Position numbers and translations under genes: made by a program. A DNA stretch of 26,478 nucleotides from a virus: IMG/VR virus record IMGVR_UViG_3300021957_000246, positions 1 to 26,478 of that record; one strand, 5' to 3'. Under the pieces are notes generated by a model, which was given only the letters and a program-made list of their open reading frames with translations, searched no databases and was not told the origin of the DNA. Shown piece by piece: positions 3,564-10,400 of this stretch. The number at the start of each line of letters is the position of its first letter. Positions within the stretch are counted from its first letter, which is position 1.

Positions 3564-4718
3564 TTGAGTTTCGAAAAATTCACAGGAGAATCAGATTTTG
3601 ATTTTGAACTAAACAAACAAAAGTTCATTGAGAATTTAGATTACCTAAAAACTATGTCAGTTGAAGAATCCACTCTTTATAAGAAGTGGCAAGAGTTCAA
3701 TAAAGATGTAGAAAAATCAAGACAATGGGCAACTCAAATAGATACTATCAGAAATAAGTTGTGGACACCAACAGACATTTATAACAAAGAATTAACTATT
3801 CAAGAAATAGAAAACCTTGACCCGATTATAGAATTTACCAAAAACGCATCCGAATGGACATTAGTTAGAAAGTTAATTCACACAATGGATTGGAACGCTA
3901 ACCCAGGTCGTAATCAAAAGTATTATGTTAAAGATAGAACAACAGATAAAATACTTGGGTTGGTATCATTAGGTAGTGATGTCACGAGTATTAAAGTTCG
4001 TGATGATTTCTTGGGTTGGAAAAAAGAAGATAAATTTGAAGAACATAAACTAAACAATACAGCTATCGCATCAACGATTGTTTGTGTTCAACCATTAGGT
4101 TTTAATATGTTGGGTGGTAAGTTAATTGCATCAATGACAACATCTTCTAATGTTAGAGAACAATGGAAAAAAGATTATGATGATTTATTAGTTGGTATCA
4201 CAACTACATCTTTGTATGGTATTCATTCTCAATACAATGGAATACCTTTATGGAAAACATTAGGAGAATCCAATGGAAAGATTTTAATTAAACCGGACGA
4301 TAGTGTTTACTTGGTTTGGAATCAATGGTTAAAAGAAAATCATTATGAAGAACATTTAAAGGCCGTATCCAATACTGGTCCTAAACAAAATGTTATTAAT
4401 AGAATTTTTAAACACTTAGAAATCAAACCAAAAGAATATGAACACGGATTCAAACGAGGTGTTTACTTTGCAAACATTTATGAAAACGGAAAAGAATTTT
4501 TAAGAAGTGAAATCAAAGAAGAAGATTTAATTATGAAACCAAAGTATCAACAAGATACAGATTACATTAACAACTGGTGGAAACCAAAAGCAATCAAACG
4601 ATATACAAAACTATTGGAACAAAATAGAATTAAACCAGATTCATTATTTTATTCCAATATAATCGGTATGACTTGGGAAGAAGCCAAAGAAACTTATTTA
4701 AAGGAAGTCGGTAGATAA
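3564..4718 (+). CDS. DruA-like (DUF4338) family protein, tentative
   Basis: A 384-residue protein. The middle (about residues 120-260) shows the layout I associate with DUF4338/DruA: a strand ILGLVSLGSDV, then RDDFLGW, an asparagine pair (LNNTAIA), a hydrophobic turn QPLGFNMLGGKLIASM, a helix with EQWKKDYDDLLVGITTTSLYG, and IPLWKTLGESNGK. DruA is a subunit of the Druantia defence system; free-standing relatives in phages and elements have no settled role. The start is TTG at 3564, chosen because it follows the preceding stop directly and because GAGG at 3554-3557 is 6 bases upstream; the next ATG is at 3654. The C-terminal third (residues 275-384) is an unassigned basic helical region. Family assignment is from memory of motif order and is moderate at best; the coding call is firm. 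Confidence 0.55.
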   Translation: MSFEKFTGESDFDFELNKQKFIENLDYLKTMSVEESTLYKKWQEFNKDVEKSRQWATQIDTIRNKLWTPTDIYNKELTIQEIENLDPIIEFTKNASEWTLVRKLIHTMDWNANPGRNQKYYVKDRTTDKILGLVSLGSDVTSIKVRDDFLGWKKEDKFEEHKLNNTAIASTIVCVQPLGFNMLGGKLIASMTTSSNVREQWKKDYDDLLVGITTTSLYGIHSQYNGIPLWKTLGESNGKILIKPDDSVYLVWNQWLKENHYEEHLKAVSNTGPKQNVINRIFKHLEIKPKEYEHGFKRGVYFANIYENGKEFLRSEIKEEDLIMKPKYQQDTDYINNWWKPKAIKRYTKLLEQNRIKPDSLFYSNIIGMTWEEAKETYLKEVGR

Positions 4719-4792: not shown

Positions 4793-6211
4793 ATGAAAAA
4801 AGAAAGAAAAATTAAGGCACCATTTAAGGAAACAAAAATTCTTCCTTATACTAACAAACCAGAAGCTTGTTTGTATTTAATAACCAATAAGACCAATGGT
4901 AAAAAATATGAGGGTGTACATAAATATAAAAAGAGCGAATATCCTGGAGATGGTACATATTGGCACTCATCAAAAAATAAAGAGTTTATCTCAGTATGTA
5001 ATAATGCTTCATCTCATCTCGTATATGAAATATTAAGATATGGTTCTTATGATGAAATGACATATTATGAATCTGAAGATTTAAAATCAGTTAATGCTGT
5101 GAGTAATGATATGTGGTACAATGATAGTAATGGTTCACCAAAATTCAAACCCGCTCAAATTGAAAAGATTGAAAAACTTCGTGATGAAATCTTACTTTAT
5201 AGTAAATCATATGGTGACCTGGTAGATTTAGATTTAATTAAAGATTCACCATTTGAAATTTATCTTGAAGATAAAGAAGTGGTTTACAATATGGATAGTA
5301 TTCAAGCAAGACAAGAAATGGATACGGAATTAATTATTTACATTACTGCAGAAGTAGATAAAAAGATGAGTATTAACAAATGTAAACCAGTCATTATTGT
5401 TGATGATAGAGTTTTAGATGGACACCATACAAGAGCTGGTGTTCATAGAGCAAATAAAGTAGACAAAATACCAGTTCTTTTGGTGGACAATTCTATAACA
5501 AAGGATTGGACAGAAACAGAAAAACGTATTTTGGCTAATTTGCTAAATCCAAAATCAGAAGTTCGTGAGAATGAGATGTCAGAAAAAGATGCGGTAAAAT
5601 TGTTAATTACTTACGCAGTTAATGATAAAGTTCCGGTTAGTTTTCCTGGAAATGTAACCACACTTGAAATGATGGGATTCGGTTCAACCGAGATTAGTAG
5701 AATCATTAATAAAGCTACAAAAGAAGTCGCTAGACAAACTTATTCTTTAAATGAAACTCATATTCATTGGGGTGGTGAAGTTTGGAAAACACGTATGTTA
5801 GACCTTATTTCAAAGGTTAGCGATGACAGCGGTGATGAAACACTCGTAACCTATACATCTACTGAAGCTTTGAGTATGAGAGCTTTAGAATTAGTTCACG
5901 AAGCTTTTTATAGTCTTGATAAAAAAAGCTTTTTACAACCTACTGGAAAAAAAGTTAAAGAGCTAATTATATTTGCTCATGCTCCAACACCAGATGCATT
6001 AACAACATATCAAAATGGTGAGGGTGATTTATTTAAAAGTAGATTAATGTTATTCTTAAAGGATAAAGGTATTAAAGTTAATGTAATTCTTATGCCATCA
6101 ACAAGACCAGATACTAATGTAAATCCTGAAGCTTTTTGGAAAACACAACAAGGTCAAGTTTGGATTTCTGACAACAACCTTGAACATCTTGGACTTGGAG
6201 ATGACAAATAA
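4793..6211 (+). CDS. Fusion of GIY-YIG-like domain and ParB-like domain
   Basis: A 472-residue multi-domain protein. Residues 23-110 look like a GIY-YIG homing-type nuclease module: ACLYLITNKTNGKKYEGVHK for the two core strands, then DGTYWHSSKNKEF, a helix with YYESED for the conserved Glu and MWYNDSNG for the terminal Asn. The first Gly-Ile-Tyr is LYL and the YIG is YEG, so activity is uncertain. Residues 160-245 match a ParB/sulfiredoxin-like domain: KPVIIVDDRVLDGHHTRAG with the signature D209-G210-H211-H212, then VLLVDNS and an ILANLLNP helix. The rest (250-472) is unassigned. SD GGAG (4781-4784) is 8 bases before the ATG. The stop overlaps the next start by one base. ParB-like domains bind CTP or nucleotides, cut DNA, or accompany DNA-modifying enzymes; which applies here is unknown. 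Confidence 0.7.
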   Translation: MKKERKIKAPFKETKILPYTNKPEACLYLITNKTNGKKYEGVHKYKKSEYPGDGTYWHSSKNKEFISVCNNASSHLVYEILRYGSYDEMTYYESEDLKSVNAVSNDMWYNDSNGSPKFKPAQIEKIEKLRDEILLYSKSYGDLVDLDLIKDSPFEIYLEDKEVVYNMDSIQARQEMDTELIIYITAEVDKKMSINKCKPVIIVDDRVLDGHHTRAGVHRANKVDKIPVLLVDNSITKDWTETEKRILANLLNPKSEVRENEMSEKDAVKLLITYAVNDKVPVSFPGNVTTLEMMGFGSTEISRIINKATKEVARQTYSLNETHIHWGGEVWKTRMLDLISKVSDDSGDETLVTYTSTEALSMRALELVHEAFYSLDKKSFLQPTGKKVKELIIFAHAPTPDALTTYQNGEGDLFKSRLMLFLKDKGIKVNVILMPSTRPDTNVNPEAFWKTQQGQVWISDNNLEHLGLGDDK

Positions 6212-8327: not shown

Positions 8328-8575
8328 TAGGATACATATTACTAAGTATAATTGTTTTGATGTTAGGTTGGACTACATTTAATCTAACGAGAAAAACAGA
8401 ACGATTAGAAAGTTGGATTGAGGATTATGCACAAAGAATACAAGAAACACAACGAGTATTAAAAGAGATTGATAACAAAGGAACATTTGAAGCAGATGAT
8501 GAAATAGGTGTAGTGTTTCAATCAATCAAAGAAGCAGTAGACGAGTTAAACGAAATAACAGAAACGGAGATATAA
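8324..8575 (+). CDS. Small single-pass membrane protein with coiled coil
   Basis: An 83-residue protein with an N-terminal transmembrane segment (about residues 3-21, IGYILLSIIVLMLGWTTF) and a charged helical tail (ETQRVLKEIDNKG, then IKEAVDELNEITETE) likely to form a coiled coil. It overlaps both neighbours (4 bases upstream, 1 base downstream), so it is translated with the HD protein and the late sigma factor. The topology resembles small inner-membrane phage proteins, including spanin-like or host-takeover proteins, but no lysis cassette context supports a spanin call. Confidence 0.7.
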   Translation: MIGYILLSIIVLMLGWTTFNLTRKTERLESWIEDYAQRIQETQRVLKEIDNKGTFEADDEIGVVFQSIKEAVDELNEITETEI

Positions 8576-9300
8576 TGCCAAGAAAAGCAAAAAAAGGTTC
8601 ACCAAGATATTACTTTCACCAAGGAACAGAAGACGCAATCATCAGACACAATAAAGAAACTCGTCCACATATGAGAGAACGAATTTATAATGAACACATT
8701 AGAGTTCCATTTGAAAAGTTGGCAGAAAATATCATTCACACATTTAAGTTTTATTACTTTGATGTTCCGAGTACAGATGTTATTCACGAGGTAGTAAGTT
8801 TCTTGTATATGAATATGCATAAGTTCGCCGAAGGTAAGGGAAAGGCATTTAGTTACTTCAGTATTGTTGCCAAGAACTATCTCATCTTACACAACAATAA
8901 CAATTACAAAAAACTAAAACAAACTGATGAAGAATCCGTAACTGATTACAAAAGAGATGCTTTGGGTGAGACCAATAGAAAAGATGTTTTAGAAGGACAG
9001 AAAGAATATATGGATTTATTCGTAGACTACTGGACCAACAATCTAACTACCGTGTTTAAAAGAAAACAAGATATTGATGTTGCTAATTCGGTATTGTATC
9101 TTATGGAACAAAGACAAAACATTGAGAACTTTAATAAGAAAGCTCTATACATTTTGATTAGAGAAATGACTGGGTCTAACACTCAACACATTACTCGTGT
9201 GATAAATGTTTTGAAAAAACATCACGTCAATTTACAAAAGAATTATCTGGCTACTGGAAGTATAGAAACTAAATATACTGGAAGTTGGGATATATTATAA
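8575..9300 (+). CDS. gp55: T4 gp55-like late-transcription sigma factor
   Basis: A 241-residue protein resembling the late sigma factor of T4-like phages. The diagnostic stretch is sigma region 2-like: STDVIHEVVSFLYMNMHKF, then EGKGKAFSYFSIVAKNYLI, which corresponds to the core-binding and -10-recognition helices (compare the GKAFSYF motif in sigma-like phage proteins). A basic, Asn-rich stretch follows (HNNNNYKKLK). No region 4 is evident, as in T4 gp55, which relies on a separate protein (gp33) at the RNA polymerase beta flap. It is the last gene of the overlapping operon starting at 4793 and lies immediately before the late structural region. It should direct RNA polymerase to late promoters such as the TCTTATATTTATT-linked starts (inference). 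Confidence 0.8.
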   Translation: MPRKAKKGSPRYYFHQGTEDAIIRHNKETRPHMRERIYNEHIRVPFEKLAENIIHTFKFYYFDVPSTDVIHEVVSFLYMNMHKFAEGKGKAFSYFSIVAKNYLILHNNNNYKKLKQTDEESVTDYKRDALGETNRKDVLEGQKEYMDLFVDYWTNNLTTVFKRKQDIDVANSVLYLMEQRQNIENFNKKALYILIREMTGSNTQHITRVINVLKKHHVNLQKNYLATGSIETKYTGSWDIL

Positions 9301-9317
9301 AAAAAATAAAAAAAAGC

Positions 9318-9346
9318 TTGACATTGTCAGTTTTTCTTCATATATT
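9318..9346 (+). promoter_or_regulatory. Sigma70-type promoter for the HNH-sigma4 gene, apparently leaderless
   Basis: A perfect TTGACA (9318-9323), 17-base spacer, TATATT (9341-9346), with an overlapping TATAAT at 9346-9351. The ATG is at 9352, so the predicted start of transcription falls on or beside it. No SD lies upstream. The arrangement copies that of the uvsE promoter almost base for base in the -10 region. Confidence 0.8.
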
Positions 9347-9351
9347 ATAAT

Positions 9352-10131
9352 ATGATTGAGAGATTGAACGGAAAAAATAAAAATCAACACTTTGAGTGGA
9401 AGTGTTTTAACAACATACCACTTGTTCAAAAACACCACGTTATTCCAAGACATCACGGTGGTGATGATAATCCAAACAATCTTATAGAATTAGAAGTTAG
9501 AGAGCACGCTCTTGCACATTTAAATATTTATGAAAATGGTATCGAGGGTGTTCCAAATACTAAGGGTTGTGAAAAGTGTAAAAATAGTTATAATACTTTA
9601 ATGGGTATGTATAGAACTTGGTATAGAAAAACAAAAATATATCAAGAACCTAACAACGAAGTTGATTGGATTGAATATTACAATGAAAAAAATAATTATA
9701 ATGATGTATTAGAAAACTATAATACATATGAAGAAAATAATTTCGTAGGTTATGACCCAGACGAAAACTTTAATTATGAGTATCTCGTGGAAGAAGCTAT
9801 GTCTTTACTTACTTCTATAACAGAAAGAGAACGAAGTGTTGTAGAATTACACTTGGGAATAAATCGAAACAGACCACATTCTCTTTATGAAATTGGAGAA
9901 ATGTTTTCTTTAACACGAGGAAGAACTGGTGATATATATCGTAAAGCTATTAGAAGACTTCGTATGTTTATGGACAACTATGTAATTGAATTAAGTAGAT
10001 GTGATGAACCATTACAAAGGGCTTATAGGTACGGGTATAGAGAACAAAACTATCAAACAATAAATCAATCACCATATCACGAAACACAATTGGAATATGC
10101 CTTTGGAAAAGGTAATGGTAACTTTAGATAA
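9352..10131 (+). CDS. HNH nuclease domain fused to sigma-70 region 4
   Basis: A 259-residue protein made of two known parts. Residues 25-60 form an HNH endonuclease core: KHHVIPRHHGG (H28, H29), DDNPNNLIEL (N43) and REHALAH (H52, H56), followed by a Cys pair (GCEKC). A linker rich in Asn, Tyr and Glu follows (85-145). Residues 148-208 are a clear sigma-70 region 4: LTSITERERSVVELHLG, then SLYEIGEMFSLTRGRTGDIY and RKAIRRLRMF, with the helix-turn-helix that in RpoD reads the -35 box and contacts the beta flap. No sigma region 2 is present. It is expressed from its own promoter, right after a gp55-like gene that lacks region 4. It may be a transcription co-factor that replaces gp33, a homing nuclease that captured a DNA-reading domain, or both. 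Confidence 0.85.
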   Translation: MIERLNGKNKNQHFEWKCFNNIPLVQKHHVIPRHHGGDDNPNNLIELEVREHALAHLNIYENGIEGVPNTKGCEKCKNSYNTLMGMYRTWYRKTKIYQEPNNEVDWIEYYNEKNNYNDVLENYNTYEENNFVGYDPDENFNYEYLVEEAMSLLTSITERERSVVELHLGINRNRPHSLYEIGEMFSLTRGRTGDIYRKAIRRLRMFMDNYVIELSRCDEPLQRAYRYGYREQNYQTINQSPYHETQLEYAFGKGNGNFR

Positions 10132-10142
10132 TTAATATAACA

Positions 10143-10166
10143 AAGGGCAGTATTTCTACTGCCCTT
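10143..10166. terminator. Bidirectional hairpin terminator between convergent genes
   Basis: A perfect 10-bp stem (AAGGGCAGTA / TACTGCCCTT) with a TTTC loop. It lies 12 bases after the stop of the + strand gene (10131) and 13 bases after the stop of the - strand gene (10179). No long T-run follows on +; on - a TGTT-rich stretch follows. The symmetric position between two converging genes is the main support. Confidence 0.75.
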
Positions 10167-10178
10167 GTAATTCCACCT

Positions 10179-10400
10179 TTATTTGTTGAGTAATCCTAAT
10201 ATAATTATTAGTGAAATAAATCCAGCAAATCCTGCTTCACCGAAGCTATTTACTAAACTTACTAAATTACCAACAATATCAATTCCTAAGAATCCCCCTA
10301 CAAATACTAATTGTACGAGAACACCTAAGCCGATTATATGTAATAGTACATCTTTTAAACCAGATACACTATCTATAATCATTTTGATTGTGTCTTTCAT
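10179..10400 (-). CDS. Small hydrophobic membrane protein, only minus-strand gene
   Basis: A 73-residue protein with a short amphipathic start (MKDTIKMIIDSVSGLKDVL) and two hydrophobic segments, about residues 20-48 (IIGLGVLVQLVFVGGFLGI) and 55-71 (FAGFISLIIILGLL). On the minus strand AGGGGG (complement of 10409-10414) stands 8 bases before the ATG, one of the best SD sites in the window, which settles the strand. The + strand reading of the same bases is proline/threonine/asparagine-rich and has no SD, so it is a shadow. The stop is 13 bases before the shared hairpin. Glycine-rich two-helix membrane proteins in phages may be holins or envelope modifiers; holin is one option, unproven. Confidence 0.75.
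   Translation of the reverse strand: MKDTIKMIIDSVSGLKDVLLHIIGLGVLVQLVFVGGFLGIDIVGNLVSLVNSFGEAGFAGFISLIIILGLLNK

Follow-up and report, generated by a model that had tools for sequence, protein, structure and literature searches.

The window, by which we mean the whole 26,478-nucleotide stretch analyzed here (IMG/VR virus record IMGVR_UViG_3300021957_000246), encodes a protein in which an HNH nuclease core is fused to the C-terminal part of a sigma factor. The reading frame is open from ATG to TAA on the plus strand (9352..10131) and encodes 259 amino acids. Because an identical frame (100%) is present in four other IMG/VR contigs, an assembly join is unlikely, and we take the fusion as real. 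The first-pass annotation had joined an HNH core to sigma region 4 in this frame, and this was confirmed by profile matches and by the intact ORF; the residues H28/H29, N43 and H52/H56 and the segments ERERSVVELHLG and YEIGEMFSLTRGRTGDIY all lie where it had placed them. Sequence comparisons suggest that the gene probably encodes an accessory, free-standing, Mob-like homing HNH nuclease residing in a hotspot, with a captured sigma region 3.2–4 as its targeting part.

The nuclease core occupies residues 23–57 (H28/H29, N43, H52 and H56; positions 9418..9522, plus strand). It matched the PHROG homing endonuclease family phrog_655 (E = 1.4e-6, residues 27–57) and, under the family cut-off, the Pfam HNH family PF01844 (E = 0.0017). 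By tblastn, an HNH endonuclease of a Synechococcus phage was 57% identical over 44 residues (5e-8), and 838 phage records matched this part of the protein, with homing endonucleases predominating. Every core residue is kept in alignments with the MobE protein of a Klebsiella phage and with HNH genes from two further phages, one of Synechococcus and one of Escherichia. These alignments and the phrog_655 match indicate that the complete catalytic core (HH..P, N, H..H) is present, so that the fusion is a predicted nuclease with an intact core of the Mob homing type. The mob genes of T4 combine an HNH domain with a distinct C-terminal region that is presumed to bind DNA (PMC2988022). The fusion likewise has a distinct C-terminal region, here sigma 3.2–4, with a putative DNA-binding role. 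A model of the whole protein (AlphaFold, single sequence, no alignment) had a pLDDT of 34 and was unusable.

The sigma region 4 that had been proposed for residues 148–208 was borne out by the Pfam family Sigma70_r4, which matched residues 153–204 (9808-9963, plus strand) at E = 2.5e-8, over the curated cut-off. Primary sigma factors in the PDB matched from about residue 134 to 204 (E = 1.7e-8), NCBIfam RpoD models matched residues 135–206 (∼1e-10), and a PHROG sigma factor family matched the fusion at 5e-9. The sigma-derived part, however, begins further upstream than had been claimed, at about residue 96, and reaches into region 3.2; the captured stretch, made up of the end of region 3.2 and region 4, thus spans residues ∼96–206 (9637..9969, plus strand). 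The best tblastn match, from Hymenobacter (Bacteroidota), was 42% identical over residues 112–204 (2e-9). The Hymenobacter alignment can be followed from about residue 96 through the end of region 3.2 (NDVLEN in the one, LLDVMEN in the other) into region 4, with SLTR and KAIRRL common to both proteins. As judged from these matches, the C-terminus of the fusion derives from regions 3.2–4 of a primary SigA/RpoD factor, and it appears Bacteroidota-like on the basis of the best matches among plasmid records rather than of a tree. Region 2 of sigma-70 is absent from the fusion: at E values up to 1, Pfam gave no match to Sigma70_r2.

The recognition helix of the captured region 4 reads TRGRTGD where a primary sigma factor has TRERVRQ. 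The residues that contact the −35 element are presumably R584, E585, R588 and Q589 of E. coli RpoD; in this numbering R584 is kept in the fusion, whereas E585 is replaced by glycine, R588 by glycine and Q589 by aspartate. Because two contact positions are glycine and one is aspartate, standard −35 recognition by the fusion is doubtful, and DNA binding by the sigma-derived domain may be altered or lost. The earlier suggestion of a homing enzyme that finds its target with a promoter-reading domain is supported in part: it is consistent with the intact HNH core and with a sporadic, intergenic insertion in a hotspot (see below), but whether its sigma module would read a standard −35 element is doubtful. 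The same changes bear on a different reading, in which the module docks on the beta flap or in the RNA exit channel and tethers the nuclease to RNA polymerase. The region 4 core is kept while the base-reading positions are changed, and the captured piece includes the linker as well as region 4 and so extends beyond the DNA-reading helix. A tethered HNH domain would cut host or rival-phage DNA at promoters or at transcribing polymerase, or block the host sigma factor. For such a tether we found no precedent in the literature searched, and we consider it unlikely; the same low probability attaches to the proposal that cutting follows the transcription machinery, and not a fixed homing site, by way of promoters or RNA polymerase contacted through the sigma C-terminal module.

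A second fusion of HNH and sigma region 4 did not appear in the collections searched, among the matches listed. Close relatives of the fusion in viral contigs were near-identical copies only, and none were found in species genomes. In tblastn searches of phage and plasmid records no match covered 80% of the fusion protein, and the partial matches examined proved to be either sigma factors or HNH genes on their own. Scans of IMG/VR with degenerate HNH-to-sigma4 patterns, which covered limited spacings and codons, gave no other fusion among the matches listed once their ORFs were inspected. It is from these tblastn searches of phage and plasmid records, and from pattern scans limited in spacing across viral contigs, that the fusion appears rare. 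The literature searched likewise held no precedent for a fusion of HNH with sigma region 4.

The distribution of the gene was established from the top 80 IMG/VR loci matching the product of the neighboring gp55-like gene, with 81 other contigs compared with the window. The fusion is present in four of the 81, all ∼100% identical to the window, and its carriers form a single lineage. It is absent from all 77 remaining contigs, which carry the gp55-like neighbor at 79–98% identity; one non-carrier has a gp55-like protein that is 98% identical. At the junction, 40 of these non-carriers are empty, with 34–92 bp from the sigma stop codon to the next conserved segment, 21 hold other genes, and 16 are more distant at the border. 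In the cleanest empty site (L007), the flanks are 92–93% identical on both sides and no gene replaces the insert. The fusion gene is therefore intergenic, sporadic and missing from close relatives. Intergenic regions are also where the free-standing endonucleases of T4 are found (PMC2988022).

The inserted segment that the relatives lack (9301..10137, plus strand) extends from the stop codon of the gp55-like gene to a terminator-like hairpin (10143..10166) just 3′ of the insertion, whose stem varies in sequence among relatives with pairing preserved. Within the segment, a promoter-like TTGACA-17-TATATT (9318..9346, plus strand; a consensus match only) ends 5 bases before the ATG of the fusion, which would give a short-leader or leaderless message. 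A similar promoter-like segment directly precedes unrelated genes in three relatives (L022, L056 and L057). The right-hand border of the site is formed by a gene for a small membrane protein of 73 amino acids (10179..10400, minus strand), convergent with the gp55-like gene; this protein is conserved across relatives and is holin-like by appearance alone.

In relatives, the genes at the same site include an N6/N4 DNA methylase (L048), a GmrSD_N-like protein just under the Pfam cut-off together with an HNH protein, with a PADLOC match to NsnA (L015), an endonuclease VII (L064), and several genes without a Pfam match. The site is a hotspot for cargo genes, of which the fusion is one. Large inserts at L022:810-2892 and L056:1153-3213, and that of L027, gave no Pfam match among those scanned, and the L025 and L027 inserts contain a DGQHR-like motif by eye (NGQHRDKIFQRLW).

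Since defence-like and modification genes occupy the hotspot as well, the insert could serve the exclusion of competitors or be a plain accessory gene. Under one such reading, the fusion would be a non-homing exclusion or defence gene kept in the hotspot, an HNH effector acting against incoming phage DNA, in keeping with the GmrSD_N-like/HNH pair and the type II-like methylase as co-occupants. We regard this as improbable, since the HNH core belongs to the Mob homing type and the sole PADLOC matches of the fusion protein were to MzaA, through its sigma-4 stretch, and, weakly, to C3a166. The similarity to MzaA, a sigma-like protein from the anti-phage system MZA, is weak (7.5e-6 in PADLOC, 3.9e-10 in NCBIfam); a generic sigma-4 stretch alone is common to the two proteins, at 39 of 800 bits, far under the family cut-off. 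The other nucleases and the GmrSD-like pair of the hotspot would also be fitting company for a nuclease tethered to polymerase.

Several other genes of the window were noted. The gene at 4793-6211 encodes 472 amino acids, of which the N-terminus weakly resembles GIY-YIG/SegE (PHROG homing endonuclease, 2.5e-7) and the stretch that follows is ParB-like by eye (DGHHTRAGVHRA); several relatives, L007 among them, show no alignment to it at this position. Positions 3564-4718 encode a phage-borne homologue of the Druantia defence protein DruA (Pfam 2.5e-23, PADLOC 1.6e-24), whose DNA is conserved in several relatives. A homologue of the UV-endonuclease UvdE (967-1893; 4.6e-58), with a TTGACA-like sequence close before its ATG, and a phage-borne RimK-like ATP-grasp ligase (1886-2788; 4.5e-51) are also encoded.

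The fusion gene starts 51 bp downstream of the gene for the gp55-like late sigma factor (8575..9300, plus strand), which by structure and profiles comprises a sigma-2 part (residues 12–122) and a C-terminal helical, HTH-like domain (residues ∼140–230). A model of this protein built from 27 relatives (pLDDT 68) had T4 gp55 (7d7c_F) as its top structural match, with a Z score of 10.2 over 106 residues, which is only suggestive, as is any Z under about 13 for all-helical models; other sigma-2 domains came next. In profile comparison with nine gp55 sequences, the N-terminal part matched with 62% probability, and two control profiles reached ≤0.2%. The model and the profiles support a gp55-like neighbor with a sigma-2 domain of the gp55 kind. 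The C-terminal part was predicted to be helical, with an HTH-like pair, and is conserved (40–46%) as far as Flavobacterium phage immuto, Microcystis phage Mel-JY01 and an uncultured 484 kb phage. Weak Trp_repressor matches fell within it; profile comparison with sigma 4 showed no similarity, and no sequence match was found in the PDB. Many members of the gp55-like family end in a TGSWDxL-like tail. A review has asked why a fused late sigma factor does not exist (PMC2988020), and the C-terminal domain of this family is a candidate for a second domain that would bind the flap or DNA.

The first-pass annotation had described this neighbor as a gp55-like sigma factor lacking region 4. Its gp55-like character is supported by structure, but the lack of region 4 is unproven and, because the protein has a second domain of its own, unusable as a premise. 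The proposal built on it was that the fusion acts as a co-activator of late transcription, serving the gp55-like sigma in place of gp33 or of sigma region 4. Its appeal lies in the position of the gene next to one whose product best matches T4 gp55, and in the fact that in T4, gp33 sits on the flap where region 4 would bind (PMC7892883). Yet none of the 77 other relatives has the fusion beside this sigma gene, nor does it occur at the equivalent site in either Flavobacterium phage immuto or Microcystis phage Mel-JY01, and by eye it has no obvious C-terminal sliding-clamp motif. It is thus not the constant companion of a gp55-type sigma that a gp33-like protein would be. Because no other relative checked has the fusion next to its sigma gene, this is the weakest of the readings, and we judge it very unlikely; given the distribution and the HTH-like C-terminal domain of the sigma factor, the claim that the fusion supplies a missing part is not supported, and the distribution argues against a late-transcription story in these phages.

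We therefore return to the homing nuclease as the probable identity of the fusion. Homing nucleases are thought to acquire new targets by exchanging C-terminal modules. In the mechanism that we propose, the sigma 3.2–4 module of a primary, Bacteroidota-like sigma factor would have replaced the usual Mob C-terminal module, and its helix-turn-helix would position the nuclease part on DNA. The HNH domain would then nick or cut alleles that do not have the gene, and repair would copy the fusion gene and its flanks into them, by intronless homing or marker exclusion. If this is true, the fusion would directly exemplify the capture, by a homing nuclease, of a piece of the cellular transcription machinery, and it would make testable which of the two, DNA sequence or RNA polymerase, guides a nuclease bearing such a piece.

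Among known systems, T4 gp33 resembles the fusion in so far as the fusion gene lies beside a gp55-like sigma gene and both proteins would act at the site on the flap that sigma 4 uses. It differs in that the fusion is a predicted nuclease and is absent from relatives, and gp33 itself is structurally unrelated to sigma region 4 (PMC7892883). With SigA/RpoD, the fusion shares an alignment over residues ∼96–206, from the end of region 3.2 through region 4, but it is without region 2, has an altered recognition helix and carries an N-terminal HNH domain. The Mob-type homing endonucleases of T4-like phages (MobA–MobE) have the same HNH core residue by residue, the same order of an N-terminal nuclease and a distinct C-terminal region, and the same intergenic and sporadic occurrence; where the aligned MobE has NUMOD3-like GK.NP.GK repeats by eye, the fusion has sigma 3.2–4 instead.
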